From Archivesica marissinica (taxonomy: Eukaryota > Mollusca > Bivalvia > Venerida > Vesicomyidae): a stretch of 64,000 bases of DNA. How positions within the stretch are numbered: position 1 is the stretch's first letter; the number at the start of each line of letters is the position of its first letter. The notes beneath the pieces were generated by a model that was not told the origin of the DNA, did no database searches, and was given only the letters and a program-made list of their open reading frames with translations. The translations under genes and the position numbers were made by a program. Shown here one piece after another: positions 1,638 to 39,000 of the stretch. The stretch spans positions 1,260,261 through 1,324,260 of the forward strand of contig CM026404.1 in assembly GCA_014843695.1 (NCBI GenBank). Direction: 5' to 3'.

Positions 1638-1789
1638 CTTTGTCTTCTGTGATGCCGACCTATCAAATTTTGATTGCCTGACTAGGCCTTCAACAGGGAC
1701 AGCGAGGGGTCTATTGTCCGTGAAGTTTGTCACAATCAACGTGATCATCTCCAGAGTCTTACCCAGACCCATATCATCGGCAAGTATAC
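1638..1789 (-). CDS. HLTF: HLTF coding exon 7 (Walker A / motif I exon)
   Basis: Acceptor ATACTTACAG|GTATAC, donor ACAAAG|GTTAGC, phase 1 in and 0 out. It encodes GILADDMGLGKT (the ATP-binding P-loop with its catalytic Lys), then LEMITLIVTNFTDNRPLAV and a linker. The acceptor and the first ten exonic bases are the last unit of the 29-bp array at 1783-3345. Confidence 0.95.
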
Positions 1790-4700
1790 CTGTAAGTATA
1801 GGGAAATAGCAAGTATACCTGTAAGTATAGGGAAATAGCAAGCATACCTGTAATTATAGGGAAATAGCAAGTATACCTGTAAGTATAGGGAGATAGCAAG
1901 TACACCTGTAATTATAGGGAAATAGCAAGTATACCTGTAAGCATAGGGAAATAGCAAGTATACCTGTAAGCATAGGGAAATAGCAAGTACACCTGTAATT
2001 ATAGGGAAATAGCAAGTATACCTGTAATTATAGGGAAATAGCAAGTATACCTGTAAGTATAGGGAGATAGCAAGTATACCTGTAAGTATAGGGAAATAGC
2101 AAGTATACCTGTAATTATAGGGAAATAGCAAGTATACCTGTAAGTATAGGGAAATAGCAAGTACACCTGTAAGTATAGGGAAATAGCAAGTATACCTGTA
2201 ATTATAGGGAAATAGCAAGTATACCTGTAAGTATAGGGAGATAGCAAGTATACCTGTAATTATAGGGAAATAGCAAGTATACCTGTACTTATAGGCAAAT
2301 AGCAAGTATACCTGTATGCATAGGCAAATAGCAAGTATACCTGTAAGTATAGGGAAATAGCAAGTATACCTGTAAGTATAGGGAAATAGCAAGTATACCT
2401 GTAATTATAGGGAAATAGCAAGTATACCTGTAATTATAGGGAAATAGCAAGTATACCTGTAATTATAGGGAGATAGCAAGTACACCTGTAATTATAGGGA
2501 AATAGCAAGTATACCTGTAAGTATAGGGAAATAGCAAGTATACCTGTAATTATAGGGAAATAGCAAGTATACCTGTAATTATAGGGAAATAGCAAGTATA
2601 CCTGTAAGTATAGGGAGATAGCAAGTATACCTGTAAGTATAGGGAGATAGCAAGTATACCTGTAAGCATAGGGAAATAGCAAGTATACCTGTAATTATAG
2701 GGAAATAGCAAGTACACCTGTAATTATAGGGAAATAGCAAGTACACCTGTAAGTATAGGGAAATAGCAAGTACACCTGTAATTATAGGGAAATAGCAAGT
2801 ATACCTGTAAGTATAGGGAAATAGCAAGTATACCTGTAATTATAGGGAAATAGCAAGTATACCTGTAATTATAGGGAAATAGCAAGTATACCTGTAATTA
2901 TAGGGAGAAAAGCAAGTATACCTGTAAGTATAGGGAGATAGCAAGTATACCTGTAAGTATAGGGAGATAGCAAGTATACCTGTAAGCATAGGGAAATAGC
3001 AAGTATACCTGTAAGTATAGGGAGATAGCAAGTATACCTGTAATTATAGGGAAATAGCAAGTATACCTGTAATTATAGCAAGTATACCTGTAAGTATAGG
3101 GAGATAGCAAGTATACCTGTAAGTATAGGGAAATAGCAAGTATACCTGTAATTATAGGGAAATAGCAAGTATACCTGTAAGTATAGGGAAATAGCAAGTA
3201 TACCTGTAAGTATAGGGAAATAGCAAGTATACCTGTAATTATAGGGAAATAGCAAGTATACCTTAAGTATAGGAAAATAACAAGTATACCTGTAATTATA
3301 GGGAAATAGCAAGTATACCTGTAATAATAGGGAAATAGCTTTTGTAAAGCCTGTGCAACAACGTTTGTGGAAGGGGGGGTACAAATTAAAATTATGATGG
3401 TGGTTGGGCATTTCTTAGATTAAAATTCAGTGGGTGAGGGTATTACTCAAATTCACATTCTGCGGTTGGGATTGCAATGGAAATTGGTGCTGTTAACATA
3501 TATACATGTGTCCATTAGTCTGGTCACTGGAGGTGAACTGATTAAATGCATAGAGTCAGTACCATGGGAGGTAAGCTGATTAAATGCATAGAATCAGTAC
3601 CATGGGAGGGGAGCTGATTAAATGCATAGAATCAGTACCATGGGAGGGGAGCTGATTAAATGCATATAATCAGTACCATGGGAGGGGAGCTGATTAAATG
3701 CATAGAATCAGTACCATGGGAGGGGAGCTGATTAAATGCATAGAATCAGTACCATGGGAGGGGTGCTGATTAAATGCATAGAATCAGTACCATGGGAGGG
3801 GAGCTGATTAAATGCATAGAATCAGTATCATGGGAGGGGAGCTGATTAAATGCTAGAATCAGTACCATGGGAGGTGAGCTGATTAAATGCATAGAATCAG
3901 TACCATGGGAGGTGAGCTGATTAAATGCATAGAATCAGTACCATGGGAGGGGAGCTGATTAAATGCATAGAATCAGTACCACGGGAGGGGAGCTGATTAA
4001 ATGCATAGAATCAGTACCATGGGAGGGGAGCTGATTAAATGCATAGAATCAGTACCATGGGAGGGGAGCTGATTAAATGCATAGAATCAGTACCATGGGA
4101 GGGGAGCTGATTAAATGCTAGAATCAGTACCATGGGAGGGGAGCTGATTAAATGCATATAATCAGTACCATGGGAGGGGTGCTGATTAAATGCATAGAAT
4201 CAGTACCATGGGAGGGGTGCTGATTAAATGCATAGAATCAGTACCATGGGAGGGGAGCTGATTAAATGCTAGAATCAGTATCATGGGAGGGGTGCTGATT
4301 AAATGCATAGAATCAGTACCATGGGAGGGGAGCTGATTAAATGCTAGAATCAGTATCATGGGAGGGGAGCTGATTAAATGTTAGAATCAGTACCATGGGA
4401 GGGGAGCTGATTAAATGCATAGAATCAGTACCATGGGAGGGGAGCTGATTAAATGCTAGAATCAGTATCATGGGAGGGGAGCTGATTAAATGCTAGAATC
4501 AGTACCATGGGAGGGGAGCTGATTAAATGCTAGAATCAGTATCATGGGAGGGGAGCTGATTAAATGCTAGAATCAGTATCATGGGAGGGGAGCTGATTAA
4601 ATGCATAGAATCAGTACCATGGGAGGGGAGCTGATTAAATGCATAGAATCAGTACCATGGGAGGGGAGCTGATTAAATGCATAGAATCAGTACCATGGGA

Positions 4701-7700
4701 GGGGAGCTGATTAAATGCTAGAATCAGTACCATGGGAGGGGAGCTGATTAAATGCATAGAATCAGTATCATGGGAGGGGAGCTGATTAAATGCTAGAATC
4801 AGTACCATGGGAGGGGAGCTGATTAAATGCATAGAATCAGTACCATGGGAGGGGAGCTGATTAAATGCTAGAATCAGTACCATGGGAGGGGAGCTGATTA
4901 AATGCTAGAATCAGTACCATGGGAGGGGAGCTGATTAAATGCTAGAATCAGTATCATGTTCTCCAAATTATGCTTGTACTCAATGATTACTTCTTCATTC
5001 AATTTTCAAAACTTATTGAACAATTTTTCTCTGAGATGTTAATGTCTTGCAAAAATTCTTCAAGAGATTTTCATGATCTGTAAATAATTCTTCAAGAGAT
5101 TTTCATGATCTGTAAATAATTCTTGATGAGATTTTCATGATCTGTAAATAATTCTTGATGAGATTTAATATCATTTTCATGATCTGCAAATAATTCTTCA
5201 AGAGATTTTCATGATCTGTAAATAATTCTTGATGAGATTTTCATGATCTGCAAATAATTCTTCAAGAGATTTTCATGATCTGTAAATAATTCTTCAAGAG
5301 ATTTTCATGATCTGTAAATAATTCTTCAAGAGATTTTCATGATCTGTAAATAATTCTTCAAGAGATTTTCATGATTTGTAAACAATTCTATATAAGATTT
5401 TCATGATTTGTAAACCATCGTTATGGAGCTACATCTTACATCGTCATGGAGTTACGTCTTACATCGTTATGGAGTTACATCTTACATCGTCATGGAGTTA
5501 CGTCTTACATCGTTATGGAGTTACCTCTTACATCGTTATGGAGCTACGTCTTACATCGTTATGGAGCTACGTCTTACATCGTTATGGAGCTACATCTTAC
5601 ATAGTTATGGAGCTACGTCTTACATAGTTATGGAGCTACGTCTTACATCGTTATGGAGTTACCTCTTACATCGTTATGGAGCTACGTCTTACATCGTTAT
5701 GGAGCTACGTCTTACATAGTTATGGAGCTACGTCTTACATCGTTATGGAGTTACGTCTTACATCGTTATGGAGTTACCTCTTACATCATTATGAGCTACG
5801 TCTTACATCGTTATGGAGCTACGTCTTACATCGTTATGAGCTACCTCTTACATCATTATGGAGCTTCGTCTTACATGGAGTTATGAGCTACGTCTTATAT
5901 AGTTATGGAGCTACGTCTTACATAGTTATGGAGCTACGTCTTACATCGTTATGGAGCTACATCTTACATAGTTATGGAGTTACCTCTTACATCGTTATGG
6001 AGCTACGTCTTACATCGTTATGGAGTTACATCTTACATAGTTATGGAGTTACGTCTTACATAGTTATGGAGTTACATCTTACATAGTTATGGAGTTACCT
6101 CTTACATCGTTATGAGCTACCTCTTACATCGTTATGGAGCTACGTCTTACATCGTTATGGAGTTACGTCTTACATAGTTATGGAGCTACGTCTTACATCG
6201 TTATGGAGCTACATCTTACATAGTTATGGAGCTACGTCTTACATAGTTATGGAGCTACGTCTTACATCGTTATGGAGTTACGTCTTACATAGTTATGGAG
6301 CTACGTCTTACATCGTTATGGAGTTACCTCTTACATCGTTATGGAGTTACCTCTTACATCGTTATGGAGTTACCTCTTACATCGTTATGGAGCTACGTCT
6401 TAACATCGTTATGAGCTACATCTTACATAGTTATGGAGCTACGTCTTACATCGTTATGGAGTTACCTCTTACATCGTTATGGAGCTACGTCTTACATAGT
6501 TATGGAGCTACATCTTACATCGTTATGAGCTACCTATTACATCATTATGGAGCTTCGTCTTACATGGAGTTATGGAGCTACGTCTTACATCGTTATGGAG
6601 CTACGTCTTACATCGTTATGGAGCTACCTCTTACATCGTTATGGAGCTACGTTTTACATCGTTATGAGCTACCTCTTACATCATTATGGAGCTTCGTCTT
6701 ACATCGTTATGGAGCTACGTCTTACATAGTTATGGAGCTACATCTTACATCGTTATGGAGCTACATCTTACATCGTTATGAGCTACCTCTTACATCATTA
6801 TGGAGCTTCGTCTTACATGGAGTTATGGAGCTACGTCTTACATCGTTATGGAGTTACCTCTTACATTGTTATGAGCTACATCTTACATAGTTATGGAGCT
6901 ACGTCTTACATCGTTATGGAGCTACGTCTTACATAGTTATGGAGCTTCGTCTTACATGGAGTTATGGAGCTACGTCTTACATCGTTATGGAGCTACGTCT
7001 TACATCGTTATGGAGCTACGTCTTACATCGTTATGGAGCTACCTCTTACATCGTTATGGAGCTACGTTTTACATCGTTATGAGCTACCTCTTACATCATT
7101 ATGGAGCTTCGTCTTACATCGTTATGGAGCTACGTCTTACATAGTTATGGATAGGGGTGACTATTGGGGTCAATTTTACTATTGCGATAGTATTGCGATA
7201 GTTAAAATACTATTGCAATAGTATTGCGATAGTATTGCGATAGTTGTAGGACTATTGCAATAGTATTGTGTAAATACATATTAATTAAAAAAATATTCTG
7301 TTTCGCATGGAATACACAAGTTTTGTGTATTTATTTATTAGCATGCAATTTTTTCTTTAATATCATGACATCGAACACACTGCACTAATTTACTTGTCCG
7401 TAGTGAAAAGTTGAAAACCCACTTGCCCGTATATCCGAACTTTATATGTTTAAATAATATAAACCAACCTTATTTAAAAATCGATACACAGTCCCGCTAA
7501 GTTACATGATTGTTTACCTGTCGTCTTCAATAATAAGGCTGCGTCACGTATCCGTTCCCGTATATCGATTTAGCGACCGCGTAGTATACTTGTAACTGAC
7601 GCATGCGCTATAGCACTTTAAATTACCCATACCCGGGATTATGGGGGTCACATCGCCTACTTTGCTCACTATTCAGTACCAAAGAAGCCATTTTCGACAG

Positions 7701-10700
7701 TAGTTTTTTTTATTGACAGCTGGCTTGTTTTGAGCGGAAAATACATTACATACCCACCGCATTTTACACAGTTTTTATGTGACGGGCGATAACTCTTGAC
7801 ATTTCCGGTTCTTATTCAGGTTATTGTCGGCTGGAAATGTTGTCCGCCACCGTTGTCGGCTGGCTTGTGTTTATTGCGGAAGTTCCACAGGAAAATAAAC
7901 AAGAACATTTGCCGATGCTTTCTCATTAAAATACGATTTAAATGCCATGGGAACATAAAGTAAATGCACACGCCGGTATTTTTACTTGTCCACGGACAAG
8001 TTACATTCGAAAATCTACTTGCCCGGCGTAACAAATGACCGATTTCGCCATCCCTGGCAACTATCGAAACTATTGCGATAGTACTGCCGCAATAGTCAAT
8101 ACTATCGATGGTCATATTTACCATCGATGGTTGACTATCGTGACGCTGTCTATTGCGATGCATCGATATTTCGATGCATCGTTACACCCCTAGTTATGGA
8201 GCTACATCTTACATCGTTATGGAGCTACATCTTACATCGTTATGAGCTACCTCTTACATCATTATGGAGCTTCGTCTTACATGGAGTTATGAGCTACGTC
8301 TTACATCGTTATGGAGCTACCTCTTACATCATTATGGAGCTTCGTCTTACATGGAGTTATGGAGCTACGTCTTACATCGTTATGGAGTTACCTCTTACAT
8401 TGTTATGAGCTACATCTTACATAGTTATGGAGCTACGTCTTACATCGTTATGGAGCTACGTCTTACATAGTTATGGAGCTTCGTCTTACATGGAGTTATG
8501 GAGCTACGTCTTACATCGTTATGGAGCTACGTCTTACATCGTTATGGAGCTACGTCTTACATCGTTATGGAGCTACCTCTTACATCGTTATGGAGCTACG
8601 TTTTACATCGTTATGAGCTACATCTTACATAGTTATGGAGCTACGTCTTACATCGTTATGGAGCTACGTCTTACATAGTTATGGAGCTACGTCTTACATC
8701 GTTATGGAGCTACCTCTTACATCATTATGGAGCTTCGTCTTACATGGAGTTATGGAGCTACGTCTTACATCGTTATGGAGCTACGTCTTACATCGTTATG
8801 AAGCTACGTCTTACATCGTTATGGAGCTACGTCTTACATCATTATGGAGCTACGTTTTACATCGTTATGAGCTACATCTTACATAGTTATGGAGCTACGT
8901 TTTACATCGTTATGAGCTACATCTTACATAGTTATGGAGCTACGTCTTACATCATTATGGAGCTTCGTCTTACATGGAGTTATACGTACCACCTCTCACA
9001 CTCTCTGGCCTCGAGTTGGACGTGAAATTTAGCACAGTATTGAAATATTTCCCATTTTTCTCCTGCCAGAACGGGGGTAAAGTGGAACTATTTTCACACT
9101 TGATCATCCAGTTAAGAGCTTGTTTCTGGTGCGGATACAGAGGGGTATCTATTGCCTGTGTAATCAAATGGAACAAAACACATTCTAATTTTTTATCAAC
9201 ACTTGTAACAATATCATCGGTATAACAAGAGGCGTATAACAGCGAGCTTCCTAATTACCTCGGGAAACACTGAGGTTATCTCATGCTCCGGTCCACCTCC
9301 GGGGTCGAGTGGTTACAGTCGCCGACTTGTATACCACTGTAACCTATCATCACTGATGGTCACGGGTTCGAGCCCCGCTCAGGCCGTGTCTCATTTATAT
9401 GAAAAAGTTGGCAGTTTCTTACGGAGGTTGGTGCGCCTAAGTACTGTTTAACCGCTGGAGCCTTCCCAGGAAAGGTGTTGTTAGGTAAACTGCCCGCCGG
9501 TGATATAGCCCAAAATGGTGCTGATGCAGGCGTAAAACCCGAAATATAACATAAAATATAACTCATGCTCCGATATACTGTGACCATTATTGGAAGCTTA
9601 CCCAGATAGGTAACACTCCCAGCCTATGATTAGCTTAACAGGGCTCATTCTAGAGGGCGAATTGGGCGACTATTTCACCCTAGGGACCCCGACTTTGCCC
9701 CTGCAGGCGTCACTTCTCCCTAAAATAATAAAATTAGTTTTTTACAATTTTCATTGAGAATTTTGTCCAGTAAGATACACTGGCCCATTATAAAGCACTC
9801 CTATTCAAATGTTGTATTGAATGGTCACACTGCATTTTAACCATATTTTGTTGAAATTTATTAAATAACACCATTTTAGGAAGCGATCTCACTTCTCCCA
9901 ACAATTCTGACCTAGAATGAGCCGTGAGCTATTATGCATCAGTCGATTATCTGTCAGCAATCTGTGCGACTACCACAGACATAAGATTTGGTGCCTCTAA
10001 AATAGCAGAGTTTGTAAGATGTAGCTAACATCTGAACATCCTTATATGGACACTCACTAGGTGAACTAGAATACTGTTCCTGAACCTGGGAAATTGTGTT
10101 CAATTACCGGTACTTGATTAAAATGTAGATGTTAAAAAAGTGAATACGCTGTTTCTTCTTCCACGCAGTTTCTTAATTGACCGACATGGTACTATGTTAC
10201 AACCTTTCTATTAATGTTAATCTACGTAACGTATTACATAAACTACAATCCACGCAGTTCCTTAATTGACCGACATGGTACTATGCTACAACCTTTCTAT
10301 TAATGTTAATCTACGTAACGTATTACATAAACTACAATCCACGCAGTTCCTTAATTGACCGACATGGTACTATGCTACAACCTTTCTATTAATGTTAATC
10401 TACGTAACGTATTACACAAACTACAATCCATGCAGTTCCTTAATTGACCGACATGGTACTATGCTACAACCTTTCTATTAATGTTAATCTACGTAACGTA
10501 TTACATAAACTACAATCCACGCAGTTCCTTAATTGACCGACATGGTACTATGCTACAACCTTTCTATTAATGTTAATCTACGTAACGTATTACACAAACT
10601 ACAATCCACGCAGTTCCTTAATTGACCGACATGGTACTATGCTACAACCTTTCTATTAATGTTAATCTACGTAACGTATTACATAAACTACAATCCACGC

Positions 10701-13700: not shown

Positions 13701-16700
13701 CTGAATATGCCCCACTTATGAATCCAAAATCCTCTACTACGTGAAGCCAAATCATACTAGTGTTCAAAGAAAGGTACATAATGTATAATAAAACAAAAAA
13801 TATAAATAAGATAATAAAATGCCATCTCTTACATGAGCAGGACTTGCTAAGCTGGTCTTGTCTCCCTCTTGTATATTCTCAAACAGCTTATCCAACTCAT
13901 TCTTCACCTAGTACAACACAACATGTTTACAACTCATTCTTCACCTAGTACAACACGACATATTTACTTCATATTAGGGATGGCAACGAATAACGATTTC
14001 GCTATTCAAATATTCGATCGAGAAGGTATTCGAATAGTCGATAGAATTCTATCAAAAACTCAAAATCACTCAAGAGTCTCCTCTGGTTCATTTACGTGCA
14101 CGGTGTAAAGCACCGACACGAGACCACGATTCCCATCTGAAAGACTATTAATTTTATTAGGGACAGACAGAGGGTCGAACCTGCGATCACTGGATTACCA
14201 GCCTGGCGTGTTAACCACTGGACTATAGGATGGTCACAGTTTTGACATCATAATTAAATACTACACACCTTAGCACCTACTGCAATTATCCGATTACATG
14301 GCACAAAGTGTCAATTAACACCTGCCAATGCAGCCATGGATGCGACAGCATAATGATTTATTCACACATCCTCTAGCGATTTCTTTTGTATTGGAAGGTT
14401 TTATGATGGTTTCAAAAGAAAACAAAGTATCTGATTTTACTGTCAGTTATATTTCATTTTTGCAAATATATTATTATTTTCCGAATTACGAATACTGGAA
14501 TAGTATTCGAATATTTGTTGCCATCCCTACTTCATATCCATATCACCAAATGTATGTCTATCTTGTACATGTGAAGAGGACCTAAGCAGACATGTGTTAC
14601 AACTATATTCTTGGTATATTAATATTTACAGAATTAAAAATACCGTTAAGTGTATAAAGACAACTCTAGAAATAACGTGATTAGGAACCATCATTCATTA
14701 AAATAAACGTGGTTTGTGAAATCAATCATTGCAATTACATGAACAAAGCACAGGCTTTACAAGTATAATCCTACACAATGCTGCATGCTTGGACATGGAA
14801 TTAAGCGCGTCTACTATACAGTTTAACCCTTTAACTGCCGAATAAATTGGACGGAATGTGCAAACAACATAGATCCAGATCAGCATATGTTATTTGCTAT
14901 TCAGAGAAGTGTTTTAGCTCCACTATCTGAATATCAAACAGCATAGAGCCAGATCAGACAGCATGTTCTGTGCCATCTGATCTGGCTCTATGTTGATTGC
15001 AAAAACGACGTTAGTTGTGATTGACAGGTTAAGGGTTAATTGCTTTCTCTATCATTATTGGGACAGTTAGAGGTGTATTTCGTTCAAATGAATTTAGTTT
15101 CGCTGTATATTACGAGGATGACCCGACTTGCGCAAGCAAAATGTCATCATCATTTAGGAAATATTTGGAATGACTCGATATTATCGAATGCTCATCTACA
15201 ATGTACGCAAATAATTTATCTCTGCATATCATCACATAGAATTCAAGTGACTGTACCTCTGCAGGGGTAAGGTATGTCCGTCGTGGTTGAACAGCAGCAA
15301 TGGAGAAGCTAGCACCATCACATGTTGCCCCGGTAACGGTGCTGGCCGATGGTTGGGTTCCTCCAGTCAAGTAGAAACCGCATGTCTTCAATTTATCCAC
15401 AGCAGTCTTCTGGTGTTCTGGTTTCCCCCACAGGGTGATTTCAACAGGCATAGAGTACGTGTTCTGGGCGCCGAATGGCACAACTCTAAGCAAACAACAA
15501 AATACTCCATACTATTGAATTCCATTTCCAAATTACCTACATTACGGGCATCGCTTACTACAATGGGTATGCTTACATAAACCTAGGAACTAGGCTGTTC
15601 GATATGCGCAGTGGTTAGCGCGCTCACTTCTCACCAATGCAACCCGGGTTCGTGAGATGGTATTCTGGTCGCCAGATCGGACAGGTGGGTTTTCTCCGGG
15701 TACTCCGGTTTCCTCCCACACGAATAACTACATTTACGCTTTCATCCGCGCCAACGAGAGTGATTAATATAAGTTGTTAGAACTTGCTTTGCAATCGGTT
15801 TTTTTAACAATCTTGTAACATGGTATTATGTTTCAGATATTAATTTGTGTACAACATCTTTTGAAGAGCATCTATTCTGCCTCTCCGATTAGTGCAGTGG
15901 TTAGCACGCTCGTTTCTCACCAATGCAACCAGGGTTCGAACCAGGAAGTATGTCAGATGGTCCGGTGGTTGCCAGATCGGACAGGTGGGTTTCTTTTTAA
16001 AGGGCAGGCTTAGTGGGAGGAAACCGGAGCACCCTGAGAAAAATACACCTGTCCAATCTGGCGACCACCATACAATCTCACATACTTCCCGGTCTGAGGA
16101 TCAAACCTGCGTTGCTTTGGTGAGAAGCGAGTGTGCTAACCACTTCTCCCTTGATTGAAGAGCATACCCTTCGGGCACAGGGTAGAACTACCAACCTTCC
16201 GCAAGCCAGATGGATATTTCCTCACATGAAATAATTCACAAGTATGTATACAAATGACAGGTCTACAAGTCTAGTCAGAGATTAAGTAAGATTTCATTTA
16301 CTTACCCTTCCAACCTAGCCAGCCCTTTGTCCATGATAAAGGCCATGGGTTTGGCGAGCTCCCTTTTAATATGTCCCACTTGTACATTGCCAACATTCTT
16401 CACTTTGATGGCATTTATGTCGTAGCGATTCTGTGGCTCACGTTCCAAAGCAACCATCTCTTTTTTATTTACCTACAACACTTACAAACTTTACAAAGTT
16501 ATTTATTCAATGGGTTTGATTTTTTAATTTTGTGAGTTTGTTTTGGGGTTAAATATAACACTGATACTTTCACAGATGCCCTCAATGTGGAAGTTGTGAT
16601 AGCGCAGCGGATGCGCGTTCGCTTCAGGTGCGAAAGGTCTGGAGTTTGAGCCCCGCTGGAGCCATTACGATTGTGCCCTTAGGCAAGGCATTTAAATTCC

Positions 16701-19700
16701 ACATGCCTCTTCTTTCTCCCTCGTGGCGATGGATTCCCTCAGGAATGAGGTCTCGAGAGTGATTAATAAAAGTTGTTAAGAACTTGTTTCACAATCGAGC
16801 TAAAATAAATTTGTATAAACTACAGGTGCCCCTCAATGCAGCATAGCAGTCACTCACATACATCATCCATGTAGAACCACATTTCTTCCACAAGTCAGCT
16901 GGGTAGTTTCCTCCAGTGCCTTTATGGCTGGAGCTAGAGGACAATTTGGGGCAAATACTCTCCCCGAGCTCCCTCAGATTCTCCCTACTTTGGACTCGGG
17001 AGAAGTATATATATATATACAGAGGTTACAAGGCTGTGTCATCAAACTTCTCCCTTATTAACCTTCTCACTACTATGCAGGTCTACAATTAGTCCTGACA
17101 TTTCTTTTGTTCAGGTTTTTGTTGAGGGTAAAGCAACCAAAGCCCGGGAAGTATGCGAGTTGGTACGGTAGTCGCCATCGGACAGGTAGGTTTTCTCCGG
17201 GTACTCCGGTTTCCTCCCACACGAATGACCACATATATGCTTTCATCCGTGCCAACGAGAGTGATTAATATAAGTTGTTAAGACTTGCTTCGCAATCGTT
17301 GTAAAATAAATAAAGTTTAAACTAAAGCAACCAAACTTCTGCAAGCCAGCTGGATAATTTCATCATATGTAAGAAGATGTGAACCTACAGTGGTGAGAGG
17401 CAAGTGCAAGAAGTGAAAAACCTTAACCGCTCGGCAACCCCTGATGGCAATCTAGCACTTTTCATGTATAACTTATACTTACAGTGCCCAAGTAATACTG
17501 CAGGCCTACAATGTGTCCACGCAGAGAACCAAAGCAAATCTCATCATCCAGATCATCACGACCCATCTCATCATCGTCATCATCATCATCATCATCATGG
17601 ATCACCACTGATTGACTCGCCTGCGACAAACTCGCAACGGATGTACCTGAGGAAGAAAATACATTGTATACGGTAGTATTAAACTCACAGAATGAGAAAT
17701 CTTAAGCGGAAATTATTAATTCTTACTGGAGGACCATTTTGTGTTTTGAATCAATGTGTTTTTCTTAATAAGCATGTCATGAAGGTTAGCTATAGATAAG
17801 TTACACCCTCAACAAGGGCCTCTAAAATCGCCGGTCTCCCGGTCCAAGACCAAATTTTAAACTGGCGAAACGAGTGTAGAACCAAAAAGTCATTAAAAAA
17901 AATCGGTCCAGAAAATTGTTGCCAAGAAATCCATCAAATAGATTTTCAAACAAACCTAAATTGGTAAATATAATCTCTTGATAAGGTGTATAATTGTTCA
18001 CACCTGGATTGATATGCAACCTGCTTGACTAATCCATGTTAATTGACCCTATTGTGGGATAATCCAAAAGCCATACATAACCCATCCGAGACATGTTTTG
18101 CCCGAGGCACTAAATTGTCAATAAGATTATAGTCTATAAAAGGGAAGTAACCGCTACGGAGCTTCTTACAGACGGATCTGTAGTCCAGTGGTTAACATGT
18201 TGGACTGGTAATCCAGGGATCGCAGGTTCGATCCCCCATCTGACCATAATAAAATTAAGTCTTTCAGATGGGACGTTAAACCGAGGTTTCGTGTCGGTGC
18301 TTTACACCGTGCACGTAAAAGAACCAGAGGAGATTCTGGAATGGTGTCTGTCTGTATCATTGCACTATCCTCCAAAAATCTAAAATAACTACTCTCTTCA
18401 GGAGGCGTCGCTCATATGGGCAACCGGTAGCGACGATAAATAAGCGTAAAACACACACGGAACTTCTTCACAACAGGTGCGTGTCTAAAAATAGATATGG
18501 AATTTCTGTGTTTTCTAGAAAATTAATTTTACTACACAGTGTGGACTTGTGTGTGTTGATGAGTTGATGCCATAGGCAGCCGATTGCATTGATACGCCCA
18601 TGCAGCTCTGACATATACATGTATGCGGTCAACCCATACCCTATTAACTTGACCCTTGACCACGTCTTACGCCGTAGTACCCCTGGCCGATGTACACAGC
18701 GATTTTCGATTTCAATGAATGACAAGCACTTCACTGTTCAAATGTCAACACACTTTACTATAAAAGCCTTGTTTTTATAACTGATAACAAAAAAACCACA
18801 CCAATTGTTATGTTATGTTATATTTCGGGTTTTACGCCTGCATCAGCACCATTTTGGGCTATATCGCCGGCGGGCAGTTTACTTAACAACACCTTTCCTG
18901 GGCAGGCTCCAGCGGTTAACCAGTACTTGGGTGCACCAACCTCCGTAAGAAACTGCCAACTTTTTCATATAAATGAGACACGGCCTGAGCGGGGCTCGAA
19001 CCCGTGACCATCAGTGATGATAGGTTACAGTGGTATACAAGTCAGCGACCTTAACCACTCGACCACGGAGGCGGACCACACCAATTGTGCTATACAAATA
19101 TGTACAAAAATATTAGAATGACATGGACGCGATTTCTACCTGGACCGATTTGGTTTTGAAAATTTTAGAAGACCTCGAAATATATGATAAAACAACAGGA
19201 GGGAGCATATGAGAGTGCAAGTAAGGGCTCCAGGACGATTTGGGAGTTATCTCCCACAGCTGTCTCACTTCTGTCTATACATACAGAACACTTAATTGCG
19301 TCAACAAATTTCTCCTTTGTACACATTAAATTTCTCCTGACCTTCAGTCATGTAAGCACCCATTTTATGGTCAAAAACCTATAAAACAAAGACCATAAGA
19401 ATGCTAGAGGTAAGATTATAATGAATTCCTTCTATGCCTATTCCATTCTGACTGCGAATCAGTTAGATTTTGCCGACTTGATTACGGAAAAGGCCAGCTA
19501 GATATCGGGTATGTAGTCTGGTGGTTCTTCAGGTAAGTATATCGTACACAAGACATATCGCCAAATTTATCTCTGCTCATGATCACAAGATACAACTACA
19601 GGGCATCTTACATAAATCTGTGTTGGAAACTATGACACGAGTACCGTACACTCTCTGTTACGCCTTACCAAGACCGAAATTCCTCTCAGCCAGATCCTTC

Positions 19701-27065: not shown

Positions 27066-30000
27066 GTATGTGTATCTGTTATAATGAATTGAAAAGTCAT
27101 GCTTCTTGTCTATTGAATATTTGACCTAGCAGGACTCTGTAGTGGTACATATATCTATTGACGTATTGTCTATTGAATATTTTACATAAAATGAATCTGT
27201 ACATATCTACTGTCTAGTGAATATTTTATCTAGCAGGACTCTGTAGTGGTACATATCTACTGTCTATTGAATATTTTACCTAGCAGGACTCTGTAGTGGT
27301 ACATATCTACTGTCTATTGAATATTTTACCTAGCAGGACTCTGTAGTGGTACATATCTATTGTCTATTGAATATTTTACCTAGCAGGACTCTGTAGTGGT
27401 ACATATCTATTGTCTATTGAATATTTTACCTAGCAGGACTCTGTAGTGGTACATATCTATTGTCTATTGCATATTTTACCTAGCAGGACTCTGTAGTGGT
27501 ACATATCTATTGTCTATTGCATATTTTACCTAGCAGGACTCTGTAGTGGTACATATCTATTGTCTATTGCATATTTTACCTAGCAGGACTCTGTAGTGGT
27601 ACATATCTATTGTCTATTGCATATTTTACCTAGCAGGACTCTGTAGTGGTACATATCTACTGTCTATTGAATATTTTACATATAATGACTCTGTAGTTGT
27701 ACATATCTACTGTCTATTGAATATTTTACATAGACTGACTCTGTAGTGGTACATATCTATTGTCTATTGAATATTTTACCTAGCAGGACTCTGTAGTTGT
27801 ACATATCTACTGTCTATTGAATATTTTACATAGAATGACTCTGTAGTGGTACATATCTATTGTCTATTGAATATTTTATCTAGCAGGACTCTGTAGTGGT
27901 ACATATCTACTGTCTATTGCATATTTTACCTAGCAGGACTCTGTAGTGGTACATATCTATTGTCTATTGAATATTTTACATAGAATGACTCTGTAGTGGT
28001 ACATATCTACTGTCTATTGAATAGTTTACATAGAATGACTCTGTAGTGGTACATATCTACTGTCTATTGAATATTTTACATATACTGACTCTGTAGTGGT
28101 ACATATCTATTGTCTATTGAATATTTTATCTAGCAGGACTCTGTAGTGGTACATATCTACTGTCTATTGAATATTTTACCTAGCAGGACTCTGTAGTTGT
28201 ACATATCTACTGTCTATTGAATATTTTACATATAATGACTCTGTAGTGGTACATATCTACTGTCTATTGAATATTTTACATAGAATGACTCTGTAGTGGT
28301 ACATATCTACTGTCTATTGAATATTTTACATAGACTGACTCTGTAGTGGTACATATCTATTGTCTATTGAATATTTTACCTAGCAGGACTCTGTAGTTGT
28401 ACATATCTACTGTCTATTGAATATTTTACATAGAATGACTCTGTAGTGGTACATATCTATTGTCTATTGAATATTTTATCTAGCAGGACTCTGTAGTGGT
28501 ACATATCTACTGTCTATTGCATATTTTACCTAGCAGGACTCTGTAGTGGTACATATCTATTGTCTATTGAATATTTTACATAGAATGACTCTGTAGTGGT
28601 ACATATCTACTGTCTATTGAATAGTTTACATAGAATGACTCTGTAGTGGTACATATCTACTGTCTATTGAATATTTTACATAGACTGACTCTGTAGTGGT
28701 ACATATCTATTGTCTATTGAATATTTTACCTAGCAGGACTCTGTAGTTGTACATATCTACTGTCTATTGAATATTTTACATAGAATGACTCTGTAGTGGT
28801 ACATATCTATTGTCTATTGAATATTTTATCTAGCAGGACTCTGTAGTGGTACATATCTACTGTCTATTGAATATTTTACCTAGCAGGACTCTGTAGTTGT
28901 ACATATCTACTGTCTATTGAATATTTTACATAGAATGACTCTGTAGTGGTACATATCTACTATCTATTGAATACTTTACATAGAATGACTCTGTAGTGGT
29001 ACATATCTACTGTCTATTGAATATTTTACATAGAATGACTCTGTAGTGGTACATATCTACTGTCTATTGAATATTTTACATAGACTGACTCTGTAGTGGT
29101 ACATATCTATTGTCTATTGAATATTTTACCTAGCAGGACTCTGTAGTTGTACATATCTACTGTCTATTGAATATTTTACATAGAATGACTCTGTAGTGGT
29201 ACATATCTATTGTCTATTGAATATTTTATCTAGCAGGACTCTGTAGTGGTACATATCTACTGTCTATTGAATATTTTACCTAGCAGGACTCTGTAGTTGT
29301 ACATATCTACTGTCTATTGAATATTTTACATATAATGACTCTGTAGTGGTACATATCTATTGTCTATTGAATATTTTACATAGCAGGACTCTGTAGTGGT
29401 ACATATCTACTGTCTATTGAATACTTTACCTAGCAGAACTCTGTAGTGGTACATATCCAGTGGCGCCGCGCCTATGACGGCTGGGGCGGTTGTGGCCGCC
29501 CCAATAATTCGGCAAGAAACGGCAATTTAAAAGAAACAAAAAATATATAGGTGAAGAAAAAAAACCAGCAAACATCTCTGCCGTAGAGTCGAGAGCTATC
29601 TACACGCACTGTTACGGACATGCCCTGAACCTGGCGATCTGTGATACAATGAAAGCATCGAAAGTAATGAGAGACACTATGGACACTGTCTATGAGATTT
29701 CAAAGTTAATTAAGTACTCTCCAAAGCGTAACGCCAAACTACAAGAGTTGAAACATCAGATGTGCCCTGACACACCAGGCTTCCGGACTCTATGTCCGAC
29801 TAGGTGGACAGTGAGAGCAGCCAGCCTAGAGAGCGTTTTACTTAACTATACTGTGCTCCAATCACTGTGGGAAGAGTGCTATGAGAGCATCAAGGACAGT
29901 GAACTTCGTGCGCGTGTGATTGGTGTTCAGACGAAAATGAGGACCTTTGATTTCCTGTTTGGTGTGTGTTTTGGACACGATATTTTGCGGCATACGGACA

Positions 30001-33000
30001 ACCTCAGCAAAGCCTTGCAACATAAAGAGATGTCTGCAGCCGAAGGACAGTTACTCTCTGCCATGACCATCGACACGTTACGGGAACTGCGCTGTGAGAC
30101 AGCGTACGACTCAATCTGGGCACGTGTCAACGAGCACCTCGACAAATTCGACGTGGACGAACCAGTTCTACCCCGCCAACGAAAGATGCCAAAGAGGTTC
30201 GAGACAGGCAGCGCCCCGTGTGAATATCCAACGACAGTCAAGGACATGTACCGCCAGAAATACTTTGAAGCTTTTGATCTGGTCACAACCAGCATTACTG
30301 AGCGTTTCGACCAGCCCGGCTACAAGACCTACCGCCATCTAGAAGACATGCTTCTCAAGTGCGTCGCCGGTGATCCAACCTACGTGGACGACATAACTCA
30401 CGTCGTGGACTTCTATGGGTCAGACATCGAGAAGTCGTCACTCTCCACTCAGCTGGAAACACTCCGAGTGTATATTAAAAACAACGGCATCGGTGTTAAG
30501 ACCTTGAACGATATTGTCAGTGTAGTCAGAAGCATGAAGTCAGCTACCAAAATGTTGTTTAGCGAGGTTGTGACTGTCCTGACGCTGATTCTAGTAATGC
30601 CAGCCACGAACGCAACTAGCGAACGCTCATTTTCGGCACTTCGTCGGGTAAAACGTACCTTCGCGCCAACATGACACAGGAACGTCTTAATCACCTGATG
30701 CTGTTACATGTGCACAGAGAGGCTACTGATGACATGGACCTGAACTGTGTTGCTAATATGTTTGTCATGGCAAAGGAATCACGTACTAGCGTGTTTGGAC
30801 GACACTGAACAATTACTTAAAGCTTTAGCTATATAGACAATCATGGAATATGTTACCACATGTATGAGATTTGAAATTTTTGAGTTGAGTTGAATCTCAA
30901 GCTGAGAAGTTTTGTGAAATTATAAAATGTCATAATTCAGTTTCGCTTTTTCATATTTATTAAAGTTCTTTGTGTGCCTTATACATGTAGTTGTATTAGT
31001 TTTGTCTAAAATTTAGAAGTAACAGAATAAATGGTTCAAAGGCCTGCAAATAGCCCTAGTTATGTCACAAGGTTCAGCAAAAAAATCTCCAGCAAAGGAG
31101 AGCCCTTAGGGGAAACCCCTACCATACCCAAATGACAGGGATGATATACTGCTATAGGAGGCCTCACGGGTGTGTAAAATATACGCCAAAACGCACCAGA
31201 GACGTTCTAGGGTTTCAAATTTTCGGGGGGATATCCCCCAGACCCCCCTGGTGGGAAGGGGAAACCCCTCCCACACCCTCCCAAATCGGCACTCAGTGGG
31301 CCGCCCCAATCGCTAAGACCGCGCGGCGCGCCTGATATCTACTATCTATTGAATATTTTACCTTTTCTCATTGCAGTTGCTGTGGCGTGGAAGATGTCGG
31401 CATATGGACTTTGTTTTCAATGTTGCCAAAGTCTGTTCAGGAAACAGGTACTATTATAAAATTATGTGACCTTGGGGAGCAATGTTTATAATTATATTTT
31501 ACAACATTTATAATATACTATTCTAGGAATAGTCACAAACTCAGCCTTTAGTTTTAACATTAATTTCAGTCAAACTTAGTTGCCTCGAACTCGCTTAATT
31601 AGAACACACCCGATTGCCCGAACACGTGGTCTGCCATCTTCCACTATTTCAAAACAGTCAAAGATAGCATTTTCATTCACTTTGAAGTTCAATCATTCGT
31701 TGGAAAGCATATAAGAAATATCGACTATTGTATTGTTTCAGGATTTGGACTATGGAGGATGTACCAAGGCGACAGAAACACTGCTGAGCCAGATTGTGCC
31801 CCTATATCTGGACACAGTGTCGATGACAATACTGTGATGTCAGCGATAGGGTACTTCATGCTCCTTTGTTTCACCGTCATGCTTATTGCGATGTGTTTTT
31901 TACGTTGCTTCGCAAGAAAAGGTAAGTTGTATGTTCATGCTACACTTTTAGGTTGGAGTTTGTCTTCCAAATGTGGCTTTAGTTTATACAAATTTATTCG
32001 AGTTTGATTGCGAAACAAGTTCTTATAACTTATATTAATCACTCTTGAGACCTCATTCCTGATGGATTCCATCGCCACGAGGGAGAGAGAAGAGGTATAT
32101 GGAATTTAAATGCCTTGTCTAAGGGCACAATCATAACGGCTCCAGCGGGGCTCAAACTCCGGACCTTTCGCACCTGAAGGGAACATGCAACCGCTGAGCT
32201 ATCACGACTTCCACATGGCTTTCTTCTTTCCAAAATGTCATGTATTATGCAAATATCATTCTGCATCAGAGTCTGAGAGAAACTATGTAGAAGGTAACAC
32301 AAAAAAGATATGGCAGTTTTTGGCACCATCTAAATAAATGTTGATAGTCTGTACCACATATACCGAAAACCGGTATGCCCATGGTACTTTTAGTTCTCCG
32401 CAGCACCCATTTGTGTATCGAACGATGTTGGTCTGAACATCTACCTCTCCTTGTTACACAGGAAAAATAAACATATTCTTTTGCGATTTGACCTACATGC
32501 CAGGCTATCATAGAATGGATACCAAGCCGTTTTGCGCCTTCTCTTCCACTGTGCAGAGCCGGAAAGAAATTTACCTGCGCGCCAACATTTAAAGACATAG
32601 CATACATAGTTTTAAAATCATCTTCTTAAAAACCACAATGTCCAGAGCTTTTATATTTGCATATATCATCATCTAGTGGACCACTACTAAGTTTGTTCAA
32701 ATGGTGATCCAGGGGTCAATGCATAGCTCACATAGTTTACATATACAGTACAAATATTTAAAAATCATCTCTGAAACCACACTGCCCAAATCATTGACAT
32801 TTTGAAAGCACCATTACCTAGTGAACCTCATATTGTGAACATTTGAGTTATAATTGACCACATGAGTAGGTTTTACAGTCATCTACTTAGAAACCACAAT
32901 TTCCAGAGATTTGATATTTTGCATGTAGAGTCAAAAGTGTTTATAGCGTACATATATTAAGAAATAACCTGCCTTAAACACAGATCCATAGCTCTTGCAA

Positions 33001-36000
33001 TTAAAATTATTTGAATGTATGCACTTTTCCCCCATTGATTCATACAACTTACACAGGATGATTCTCTTCTCAATAAGTAACCATATATACCATATATTGA
33101 TATGTCTTTCTGAGATTCCTGTCCGGACCATATGTTCACTACTTGAAGATATACAGATACCAAACTAATTGGCAAGTGGATACATCTAAGGATGGTTGTT
33201 TGTCGTATACTAAAGTACATATCTGGGCTATTTTTCCTATGCCATCCGACATAAAGGTACCAAAGTATCTATGCAGATATTTGTGTTGCAACTATAATCG
33301 TTCAATGGGTTACCTGTTAAAATAATATTATGAATGAATTTGATATACCTAGTACTTTTAAAACGAATGTGCAAACTTCCAGGTGAGCGATCATAGGGCC
33401 TTCATGACCCTCTTGTTTGTTGATTGGCCTCTGTTGCTTACCGGTAGTCTGTTTGGCTGTACATCGACGTCCTGACCCCATGGTTATTAAACCTTTCTCA
33501 GACCTCAAACCCAAGTAATAATCACTAATTTGATTGGTCAATTCTCAGATTTACTGTCAGCTGAACCAATCAGAAGCTTGAGACTGAGTTTGAGATTGGT
33601 GAAAAGTTTTATGACCTCGAGGCCTGGTCATTCTGCAGTGCAGTTCCCGGTTGTAATGTACTTGGTATGTCGTCTAATAAACTTGGTACAAGTAACATTG
33701 TATCATTGTCCAAGTAACATTGTATCATTGTCCAAGTAACATTGTATCATTGTCCCAGTAACATTGTATCATTGTCCCAGTAACATTGTATCATTGTCCA
33801 AGTAACATTGTATCATTGTCCCAGTAACATAGTATCATTGTCCAAGTAACATAGTATCATTGTCCAAGTAACACTGTATCATTGTCCCAGTAACATTGTA
33901 TCATTGTCCAAGTAACATTGTATCATTGTCCAAGTAACATTGTATCATTGTCCCAGTAACATTGTATCATTGTCCAAGTAACATTGTATCATTGTCCAAG
34001 TAACATTGTATCATTGTCCAAGTAACATTGTATCATTGTCCAAGTAACATTGTATCATTGTCCAAGTAACATTGTCCAAGTAACATTGTATCATTGTCCA
34101 AGTAACATTGTATCATTGTCCCAGTAACATAGTATCATTGTCCAAGTAACATTGTATCATTGTCCCAGTAACATAGTATCATTGTCCAAGTAACATAGTA
34201 TCATTGTCCAAGTAACACTGTATCATTGTCCAAGTAACATAGTATCATTGTCCAAGTAACACTGTATCATTGTCCCAGTAACATAGTATCATTGTCCCAG
34301 TAACACTGTATCATTGTCCCAGTAACATTGTATCATTGTCCCAGTAACATTGTATCATTGTCCAAGTAACATTGTATCATTGTCCCAGTAACATTGTATC
34401 ATTGTCCCAGTAACATTGTATCATTGTCCAAGTAACATTGTATCATTGTCCCAGTAACATTGTATCATTGTCCAAGTATCATTGTATCATTGTCCCAGTA
34501 ACATTGTATCATTGTCCAAGTAACATTGTATCATTGTCCAAGTAACATTGTATCATTGTCCAAGTAACATAGTATCATTGTCCAAGTAACATTGTATCAT
34601 TGTCCCAGTAACATTGTATCATTGTCCAAGTAACATTGTATCATTGTCCAAGTAACATAGTATCATTGTCCCAGTAACATTGTCCAAGTAACATTGTATC
34701 ATTGTCCAAGTAACATTGTATCATTGTCCAAGTAACATTGTCCAAGTAACATTGTATCATTGTCCAAGTAACATTGTATCATTGTCCAAGTAACATTGTC
34801 CCAGTAACATTGTATCATTGTCTAAGTAACATTGTATCATTGTCCAAGTAACATTGTATCATTGTCCAAGTAACATAGTATCATTGTCCAAGTAACATTG
34901 TATCATTGTCCCAGTAACATTGTATCATTGTCCAAGTAACATTGTATCATTGTCCAAGTAACATAGTATCATTGTCCCAGTAACATTGTCCAAGTAACAT
35001 TGTATCATTGTCCAAGTAACATTGTATCATTGTCCAAGTAACATTGTCCAAGTAACATTGTATCATTGTCCAAGTAACATTGTATCATTGTCCAAGTAAC
35101 ATTGTATCATTGTCCAAGTAACATTGTCCAAGTAACATTGTATCATTGTCCAAGTAACATTGTATCATTGTCCAAGTAACATTGTCCCAGTAACATTGTA
35201 TCATTGTCTAAGTAACATTGTATCATTGTCCCAGTAACATTGTATCATTGTCCAAGTAACATTGTATCATTGTCCAAGTAACATAGTATCATTGTCCAAG
35301 TAACACTGTATCATTGTCCCAGTAACATTGTATCATTGTCCCAGTAACATTGTATCATTGTCCAAGTAACATTGTATCATTGTCCAAGTAACATTGTATC
35401 ATTGTCCAAGTAACATAGTATCATTGTCCCAGTAACACTGTATCATTGTCCCAGTAACATTGTATCATTGTCCCAGTAACATTGTATCATTGTCCCAGTA
35501 ACATTGTATCATTGTCCCAGTAACATTGTATCATTGTCCCAGTAACATTGTATCATTGTCCAAGTAACATTGTATCATTGTCCAAGTAACATAGTATCAT
35601 TGTCCCAGTAACATTGTATCATTGTCCCAGTAACATTGTATCATTGTCCAAGTAACATTGTATCATTGTCCAAGTAACATTGTATCATTGTCCAAGTAAC
35701 ATAGTATCATTGTCCCAGTAACACTGTATCATTGTCCCAGTAACATTGTATCATTGTCCCAGTAACATTGTATCATTGTCCCAGTAACATTGTATCATTG
35801 TTCCAGTAACATTGTATCATTGTCCAAGTAACATTGTATCATTGTCCAAGTAACATAGTATCATTGTCCAAGTAACATTGTATCATTGTCCAAGTAACAT
35901 TGTCCCAGTAACATTGTATCATTGTCTAAGTAACATTGTATCATTGTCCCAGTAACATTGTATCATTGTCCCAGTAACATTGTATCATTGTCCCAGTAAC

Positions 36001-39000
36001 ATTGTATCATTGTCCCAGTAACATTGTATCATTGTCCCAGTAACATTGTATCATTGTCCAAGTAACATTGTATCATTGTCCAAGTAACATAGTATCATTG
36101 TCCAAGTAACATTGTATCATTGTCCAAGTAACATTGTCCCAGTAACATTGTATCATTGTCCAAGTAACATTGTATCATTGTCCCAGTAACATTGTATCAT
36201 TGTCCAAGTAACATTGTATCATTGTCCAAGTAACACTGTATCATTGTCCAAGTAACACTGTATCATTGTCCCAGTAACATTGTATCATTGTCCCAGTAAC
36301 ATTGTATCATTGTCCAAGTAACATTGTATCATTGTCCCAGTAACATTGTATCATTGTCCAAGTAACATTGTATCATTGTCCAAGTAACATTGTATCATTG
36401 TCCAAGTAACATTGTATCATTGTCCAAGTAACATTGTATCATTGTCCAAGTAACATTGTATCATTGTCCAAGTAACATTGTATCATTGTCCAAGTAACAT
36501 TGTATCATTGTCCAAGTAACATTGTCCAAGTAACATTGTATCATTGTCCAAGTAACATTGTATCATTGTCCCAGTAACATTGTATCATTGTCCAAGTAAC
36601 ATTGTATCATTGTCCCAGTAACATTGTATCATTGTCCAAGTAACATAGTATCATTGTCCAAGTAACACTGTATCATTGTCCAAGTAACATAGTATCATTG
36701 TCCAAGTAACACTGTATCATTGTCCCAGTAACATAGTATCATTGTCCAAGTAACACTGTATCATTGTCCCAGTAACATTGTATCATTGTCCCAGTAACAT
36801 TGTATCATTGTCCAAGTAACATTGTATCATTGTCCAAGTAACATTGTATCATTGTCCCAGTAACATTGTATCATTGTCCAAGTAACATTGTATCATTGTC
36901 CCAGTAACATTGTATCATTGTCCAAGTATCATTGTATCATTGTCCCAGTAACATTGTATCATTGTCCAAGTAACATTGTATCATTGTCCAAGTAACATTG
37001 TATCATTGTCCAAGTAACATAGTATCATTGTCCAAGTAACATTGTATCATTGTCCCAGTAACATTGTATCATTGTCCAAGTAACATTGTATCATTGTCCA
37101 AGTAACATAGTATCATTGTCCCAGTAACATTGTCCAAGTAACATTGTATCATTGTCCAAGTAACATTGTATCATTGTCCAAGTAACATTGTCCAAGTAAC
37201 ATTGTATCATTGTCCAAGTAACATTGTATCATTGTCCAAGTAACATTGTCCCAGTAACATTGTATCATTGTCTAAGTAACATTGTATCATTGTCCAAGTA
37301 ACATTGTATCATTGTCCAAGTAACATAGTATCATTGTCCAAGTAACATTGTATCATTGTCCCAGTAACATTGTATCATTGTCCAAGTAACATTGTATCAT
37401 TGTCCAAGTAACATAGTATCATTGTCCCAGTAACATTGTCCAAGTAACATTGTATCATTGTCCAAGTAACATTGTATCATTGTCCAAGTAACATTGTCCA
37501 AGTAACATTGTATCATTGTCCAAGTAACATTGTATCATTGTCCAAGTAACATTGTATCATTGTCCAAGTAACATTGTCCAAGTAACATTGTATCATTGTC
37601 CAAGTAACATTGTATCATTGTCCAAGTAACATTGTCCCAGTAACATTGTATCATTGTCTAAGTAACATTGTATCATTGTCCCAGTAACATTGTATCATTG
37701 TCCAAGTAACATTGTATCATTGTCCAAGTAACATAGTATCATTGTCCAAGTAACACTGTATCATTGTCCCAGTAACATTGTATCATTGTCCAAGTAACAT
37801 TGTATCATTGTCCAAGTAACATTGTATCATTGTCCAAGTAACATTGTATCATTGTCCAAGTAACATAGTATCATTGTCCCAGTAACATGTATCATTGTCC
37901 CAGTAACATTGTATCATTGTCCAAGTAACATTGTATCATTGTCCCAGTAACATTGTATCATTGTCCCAGTAACATTGTATCATTGTCCCAGTAACATTGT
38001 ATCATTGTCCAAGTAACATTGTATCATTGTCCAAGTAACATAGTATCATTGTCCAAGTAACACTGTATCATTGTCCCAGTAACATTGTATCATTGTCCAA
38101 GTAACATTGTATCATTGTCCAAGTAACATTGTATCATTGTCCAAGTAACATTGTATCATTGTCCAAGTAACATAGTATCATTGTCCCAGTAACACTGTAT
38201 CATTGTCCCAGTAACATTGTATCATTGTCCCAGTAACATTGTATCATTGTCCCAGTAACATTGTATCATTGTTCCAGTAACATTGTATCATTGTCCAAGT
38301 AACATTGTATCATTGTCCAAGTAACATAGTATCATTGTCCAAGTAACATTGTATCATTGTCCAAGTAACATTGTCCCAGTAACATTGTATCATTGTCTAA
38401 GTAACATTGTATCATTGTCCCAGTAACATTGTATCATTGTCCCAGTAACATTGTATCATTGTCCCAGTAACATTGTATCATTGTCCCAGTAACATTGTAT
38501 CATTGTCCCAGTAACATTGTATCATTGTCCAAGTAACATTGTATCATTGTCCAAGTAACATAGTATCATTGTCCAAGTAACATTGTATCATTGTCCAAGT
38601 AACATTGTCCCAGTAACATTGTATCATTGTCCAAGTAACATTGTATCATTGTCCAAGTAACATTGTATCATTGTCCAAGTAACATTGTATCATTGTCCAA
38701 GTAACACTGTATCATTGTCCAAGTAACACTGTATCATTGTCCAAGTAACATTGTATCATTGTCCCAGTAACATTGTATCATTGTCCAAGTAACATTGTAT
38801 CATTGTCCAAGTAACATTGTATCATTGTCCAAGTAACATAGTATCATTGTCCAAGTAACATTGTATCATTGTCCAAGTAACATAGTATCATTGTCCAAGT
38901 AACATAGTATCATTGTCCAAGTAACACTGTATCATTGTCCCAGTAACATTGTATCATTGTCCAAGTACACTGTATCATTGTCCAAGTAACATTGTATCAT

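Follow-up and report, generated by a model that had tools for sequence, protein, structure and literature searches.

How could an exon be spliced correctly if its acceptor is the last of some 54 near-identical acceptors in tandem, and where would such an array have come from? The question is raised by an intron of the HLTF gene of Archivesica marissinica, found in a window (the whole stretch of DNA analysed) of 64,000 nucleotides. Coordinates of the features are collected in Table 1.

The HLTF gene and the array at its exon f acceptor

The last 29-bp unit of the array runs into an exon reading GILADDMGLGKTLEMITLIVTNF, which matched the SNF2 family. Joining exons a to f gave a single open frame of 317 amino acids, the product of which carries HIRAN and SNF2 domains and found its best match among HLTF HIRAN structures (E 7e-44). 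The closest HLTF relative was that of Dreissena (63%, full-length HLTFs lying outside the length limits of the search). Exons g to r were located in the 60 kb downstream of the window. Exons h to r were consistent in all ten phases, with a stop codon after them; exon g, of which we are less sure, was left unjoined. Of the 18 exons located, the HLTF frame is intact across 17 (six, a to f, plus eleven, h to r).

Exon e ends in GGTG/GTACGT and exon f starts with GTATACTTGCC, which places the junction in phase 1 inside a Gly codon (joined reading ...GGT G/GT ATA CTT GCC...). Six of eight aligned homologues continue through GGILADDMGLGKT at this junction without extra residues. The GGILADDMGLGKT stretch is absent from the bivalve predictions P0241 (Dreissena) and P0260 (Tegillarca), in which GILADDMGLGKTLE or more is missing at this point, and annotation of the exon f start may be difficult in further bivalves as well. 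An earlier note on this DNA had the acceptor right, but the exon start is corrected to 1789 and the AG to 1791-1790 on the minus strand. The note was also right in assigning the exon to HLTF; the number 7 that it gave was not established, the N-terminal exons not having been located, and the exon is named f here.

TRF reported a period of 29 with 54.1 copies and 93% match, and splitting the array on the exon-start motif gave 54 units spaced by exactly 29 nucleotides in 50 of 53 cases (the remaining three were 28, 21, and 30). The unit consists of 19 intron nucleotides, including the AG, plus 10 exon nucleotides, such that each unit has the pyrimidine-rich stretch, AG/GT and the first ten exon bases. 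The AG is followed directly by GT in 54 of 54 units, one of which reads TTAAG/GT. Fifteen unit types were present among the 54, with 17 of the 29 columns variable and the four bases flanking the junction (A, G, G, and T) invariant. Exon-derived columns varied less often (3 of 10) than intron-derived columns (14 of 19), although this is a weak test (P 0.046). At intron-derived position -6, A occurs in 27 units and C in 27; the A form creates an in-frame TAA and the C-form units are open in three frames (judged by eye). No higher-order repeats were apparent within the array: unit types recurred in runs of four at most, a length equalled in 225 of 1000 shuffles. Both ends of the founder segment have a GC (AAAAGC/TATT and TTGC/CGAT) that may be microhomology, though it is too short to count.

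The array contains 26 yTnAy motifs, all of them CTTAC, and 23 sit 32 nt ahead of the next AG. As the sole such motif lying 18-45 nt upstream of the true acceptor falls in the preceding unit, the working exon f acceptor may need two 29-bp units, with the qualification that at four of eleven other acceptors no yTnAy motif was found within 50 nt.

To place the unit in the 1.54-Gb genome, a 30-nt unit probe was used with up to two mismatches allowed, and 49 of 49 matches lay inside the 29-bp array (genome match counts for this and the 23-bp probe described below are lower bounds). As the probe was found at one place only, the array was born there from the exon edge. Moreover, the ten exon-derived bases encode conserved Gly-Ile-Leu-Ala and hence the exon was the source, with copying from exon to array. 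Chance resemblance was considered and rejected, given ten consecutive bases shared with the start of a conserved coding exon and no second place in the genome. We have high confidence in both the anatomy of the array and its origin in situ. The earlier note had described an array of about 54 units, of which the last is the real acceptor, that had grown from the acceptor plus exon start; TRF and the unit split agree with the former claim, and the unit anatomy and single-locus probe with the latter.

Table 1 Features of the window discussed in the text
Feature	Position	Strand	Basis or detail
29-bp minisatellite, 54 units, mirage-type	1780..3339	-	TRF, unit split, and genome probe
Exon-proximal unit	1780..1808	-	true acceptor AG 1791-1790, exon bases 1789-1780
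CTTAC, candidate branch point, penultimate unit	1821..1825	-	A at 1822, 32 nt from acceptor G 1790
TAA in frame	1854..1856	-	reached via the third upstream decoy
HLTF exon a	17483..17646	-	HIRAN start
HLTF exon b	16306..16472	-	HIRAN
HLTF exon c	15257..15485	-	HIRAN end
HLTF exon d	13833..13907	-	
HLTF exon e	8990..9155	-	ends ...GGTG/GTACGT, donor at 8989
HLTF exon f	1638..1789	-	SNF2 motif GILADDMGLGKT, donor GT at 1637
23-bp array, donor end of exon e-f intron	8193..8975	-	TRF edge 14 nt from donor
Second block of 23-bp family, exon e-f intron	5416..7151	-	70 GTAAGA sites
38-bp array, exon e-f intron	3529..4958	-	37 CTGAT...CAG acceptor-like cassettes
37-bp duplication, two copies	13893..13967	-	exon d acceptor and start copied once
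Reverse transcriptase ORF, 647 aa, open	48746-50686	-	RVT_1, E 2e-25
388-aa ORF	29508-30671	+	hAT dimerisation match below curated cut-off, E 0.002

Coding outcome of the decoys and their likeness to the true site

Exon e was joined to each of the 53 upstream units and the product read through exon f. All 53 joins met a stop before exon f had been read to its end, and 17 of them were in frame with exon f. The earlier note had stated that upstream units 1 and 2 shift the frame, that unit 3 is in frame but meets the TAA at 1856-1854, and that almost every decoy gives nonsense; the joins bear this out, and almost every can be replaced by every. The premature stops are no special design, since a random intron would give likewise.

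That the decoy sites are near-identical, as had also been claimed, was confirmed by unit comparison. Across all 29 nt, ten decoys match the true unit exactly (11 units are of that type when the true one is included) and two of the ten (AG 3175 and AG 2341) also share an identical preceding unit. Given two decoys identical over two whole units, the true site cannot be told apart by the intron sequence around it, and the locus provides a natural test of how the spliceosome chooses among 54 near-identical acceptors. When scored with a small matrix, 34 of the 53 decoys were at or above the true acceptor.

Matrices built from 11 acceptors and 10 donors had suggested an exceptional decoy density, which for the acceptors was gone with leave-one-out scoring. 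Equally good AGs were then found at 8.1/kb in the array intron versus 0 to 17/kb in nine other introns, and at a fixed threshold the values were 8.1/kb versus 1.0-9.1/kb elsewhere. The donor density of the array intron (17.8/kb) was the highest of ten, the next being 14.1 (or 9.6 at a fixed threshold). The decoys stand out by near-identity, not by acceptor density. RNA hairpins that would hide the decoys were also rejected, as they were no stronger than those of several other arrays: self-pairing of CAGGUAUACUUG had a z of -4.7 versus dinucleotide shuffles and of -1.97 versus tandem-preserving shuffles, and 9 of 46 other arrays were lower.

Other arrays of the same gene and their excess at exon edges

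The exon e-f intron contains three further tandem blocks (Table 1). In the 23-bp array at its donor end, 31 GTAAGA donor-like sites lie over 8191-8983, and 58 of 58 genome matches to a 23-bp unit probe (a lower bound) were in one locus. The cassettes of the 38-bp array have the CAG 12-18 nt after CTGAT and are home to most of the top-scoring AGs of the intron.

Copies of the other HLTF junctions were sought with a 24-nt junction word (12 exon plus 12 intron nucleotides, up to five mismatches), an array being called where at least three further copies lay within 9 kb. Junction-spanning arrays were found at 5 of 35 HLTF junctions, one acceptor (f, 52 further copies) and four donors (h, m, n, and o with 8, 14, 30, and 10 further copies, respectively). 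Hence, mirage-type arrays are present at four HLTF junctions beyond that of exon f, all donors, and these are new. When up to six mismatches were allowed, the copied AG was intact in 53 of 53 cases at f (one shifted unit fell outside the count) and the copied GT in 8/9 at h, 34/34 at m, 36/36 at n, and 11/12 at o, true sites included. Use of the donor decoys (four mismatches in 18 allowed) led to stops in 7/7 at h, 46/46 at m, 44/44 at n, and 9/9 at o, a total of 106. Beside the h donor, a 148-copy array of 39 bp contains 135 diverged copies of the exon end, each followed by GTAAG. The exon d duplication resembles the first step of the process behind these arrays and, together with the four donor arrays, would show it at several stages.

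The number of such arrays was compared with a null model in which founder segments of the 39 HLTF arrays were placed uniformly in each intron. Five junction-spanning arrays were observed versus 0.62 expected (P 0.00025), and without the exon e-f intron, which had been chosen for having an array, there were four versus 0.59 (P 0.0023). An array edge lay within 30 nt of the junction at 9 of 34 intron ends versus 1.96 expected (0/20000 simulations); with that intron omitted the values were 7 of 32 versus 1.78 (P 0.0004). Arrays spanned none of the 11 junctions of the SLC25A24-like gene of the window, four of which occur once more owing to a larger duplication, and none of 15 junctions in three partial genes from random samples (recognised by eye from coding-like ORFs). 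The comparison of HLTF with these four genes (5/35 versus 0/26 junctions) gave P 0.066, at which HLTF can be called neither special nor typical. We have moderate confidence in the excess of arrays at HLTF junctions. This excess suggests that minisatellites may arise preferentially at exon edges, or be preferentially retained there, which has implications for the growth of introns and perhaps also for faulty annotation of mollusc genomes.

Tandem arrays occupied a mean of 46.5% of the sequence in 20 samples, each of 10 kb, from chromosome C19 (median 41%, range 0 to 100%) and were common in these samples well beyond HLTF. The window itself has an 8.7-kb array of a 44-bp unit in ~202 copies (33689-42359). 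A bolder reading, which we put forward as doubtful, is that splice junctions are seeds. An array at a junction would keep a unit protected by selection from which it could regrow, whereas arrays in intron interiors could shrink away; in a genome that readily generates minisatellites, these would therefore pile up at exon edges, with AG/GT arrays surviving by re-splicing of wrong joins. If this were true, HLTF would exemplify a functional gene that harbours copied splice signals by the hundred.

Origin of the arrays, known systems and neighbouring features

The exon f array is most readily explained, with a probability that we put at roughly three in four, as a mirage-type minisatellite, that is, a junction-spanning tandem duplication that grew near-neutrally while exon definition kept splicing in place and decoy products decayed. 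A tandem duplication, its founder segment spanning the 3' splice site of the HLTF intron, would have come first and presumably grew to 54 units by slippage or unequal exchange. The unit touching the exon would be kept constant by its coding and splicing role, leaving the other 53 as free copies. By exon definition, splicing most likely still occurs at the exon-proximal site, since no other site adjoins exon f together with the 5' splice site of that exon, and any transcript spliced to a decoy would meet a premature stop and be expected to be degraded. The array would be tolerated rather than useful. The intact HLTF frame is consistent with regular splicing having been kept, although we have low confidence in anything that these data suggest about splicing in the cell. 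Two points run counter to the mirage-type explanation: decoys should win if each acceptor is taken up as soon as it has been transcribed, and the exon-derived columns are less variable than pure neutrality predicts, albeit by a weak test.

Several other explanations were weighed. As AG is immediately followed by GT in every unit, exon e joined to a decoy would recreate a donor (GTG/GTATAC) that could be respliced to later units until the last was reached, a recursive ladder by which wrong choices would be repaired. Such a ladder would explain why mRNA is normal despite similar arrays in amphioxus, and excerpts of PMC8605326 define an intronic ratchet point by AG/GT juxtaposition. However, these excerpts have recursive splicing require a cryptic exon with its own donor, to which weakened ratchet donors lose (exceptions include hth). 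The recreated donor scored mostly 1.0 (range -1.5 to 3.8), which is lower than, or among the lowest of, the 11 real donors of the window (1.8 to 11.6, leave-one-out); AG/GT itself read as donor scored mostly 3.1, low yet within 1.8-11.6 (small matrix). Moreover, the exon starts with GT because the Gly codon at the junction is GGT, and this GT needs no function. We judge the ladder improbable. The stops in all 53 decoys, and decoy scores like that of the true acceptor (34/53 at or above it by the small matrix), would also suit a rheostat in which decoys divert splicing according to array length, such that unit number sets HLTF protein via decay. This is quite improbable given an acceptor decoy load within the range of nine other introns (8.1/kb versus 0 to 17/kb), albeit by a weak measure.

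The remaining alternatives question the array itself. The assembly could have collapsed, inflated or misplaced it, or the exon could begin elsewhere, and in the same window a gene segment is indeed duplicated on the two sides of a gap of 1000 N, which points to an imperfect assembly. Unit order and type vary, however (15 types among 54), the unit probe found no second place and frame and homologues pin down where the exon joins, all of which make an assembly or gene model error very improbable. Last, a dispersed satellite might have been inserted beside the acceptor and resemble it by chance, the sampled chromosome being rich in tandem arrays. This is hardly credible, and the single-locus probes already contradict it: 49 of 49 matches for the 29-bp unit and 58 of 58 for the 23-bp unit (lower bounds) are in this one intron and the ten shared bases are conserved coding sequence. 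Unlike dispersed satellite DNA, the unit is found at one locus rather than at many.

Minisatellites are reportedly able to multiply splice signals elsewhere, Turri et al. in 1995 being said to have described one that gives multiple splice donors in an interferon-induced transcript (human 6-16/IFI6). The HLTF f array resembles it in that tandem repeat units carry a splice signal and differs in being on the acceptor rather than the donor side.

The mirage-type explanation rests on likeness to arrays of amphioxus. According to excerpts of PMC3087553 and PMC3902484, mirage minisatellites occur in Adh3, the globins BflGb6 and BflGb9, and PGBD5 (the excerpts of PMC3902484 add PGBD5 and troponin C) and consist of repeats that span an exon-intron boundary, acceptor or donor, in many units having AG/GT signals. 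Unit lengths are 10-72 bp in Adh3 and 150-160 bp in the globins, and in these excerpts the amphioxus arrays are reported not to disturb splicing. The HLTF f array likewise spans the boundary (19 intron plus 10 exon nucleotides in 54 units), its units carry the splice dinucleotides (AG/GT in 54/54), and both boundary types are hit in HLTF (one acceptor plus four donor arrays). Judged by its nucleotide sequence, the HLTF f array has the structure that defines a mirage minisatellite. The earlier note, whose interpretation is partly supported, did not name this class and passed over the donor-like GT of each unit, the yTnAy motif of the preceding unit, and the four donor arrays. Differences are also evident. 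The host is a bivalve rather than a cephalochordate, and one whose tandem arrays make up ~46% of 20 sampled chromosome stretches; there are 54 units versus the 3 or 6 that the excerpts give for BflGb6 haplotypes; and 5 of 35 junctions are affected in a single gene (the affected Adh3 junctions were outside this comparison). Among the literature matches listed, in a search that mostly left out subscription papers, no mollusc arrays of the mirage kind were reported. Our findings would extend mirage arrays to a mollusc from amphioxus, the sole host in the excerpts of PMC3087553 and PMC3902484.

In excerpts of PMC4039745 an intronic minisatellite of C. elegans is linked to alternative splicing. The recursive splice sites of the PMC8605326 excerpts share the AG/GT juxtaposition of acceptor and donor dinucleotides, but are single sites in long introns, whereas HLTF has 54 in tandem every 29 nt with a donor half that scored low. 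The Rogers model of intron gain by tandem duplication of AG/GT, as cited in excerpts of PMC3087553, likewise has AG/GT-bearing segments duplicated, but HLTF multiplies an existing intron edge and no new intron is evident.

Of 2849 SCaMC relatives 120 were listed, among which the top named identities were Mactra (54%), Mercenaria (53%), and Mya (51%); Dreissena and Branchiostoma both reached 49%, and some vertebrates up to 51%. Ranking of the same 120 by E-value put two vertebrate records and a scorpion first. Taken together, the protein matches indicate that the host is a heterodont bivalve rather than an amphioxus. Two SLC25A24-like exons are duplicated at 45430-46420 and 51930-52880, flanking the gap of 1000 N (47185-48184), and are the result of either recent duplication or unmerged haplotypes. 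Relatives of the 647-residue reverse transcriptase include proteins filed under MAGs of Sedimenticola and Candidatus Thiodiazotropha. As we take these to be bivalve symbionts, the reverse transcriptase entries in their MAGs are probably host contamination. The 388-residue hAT-like ORF is perhaps a transposase remnant.
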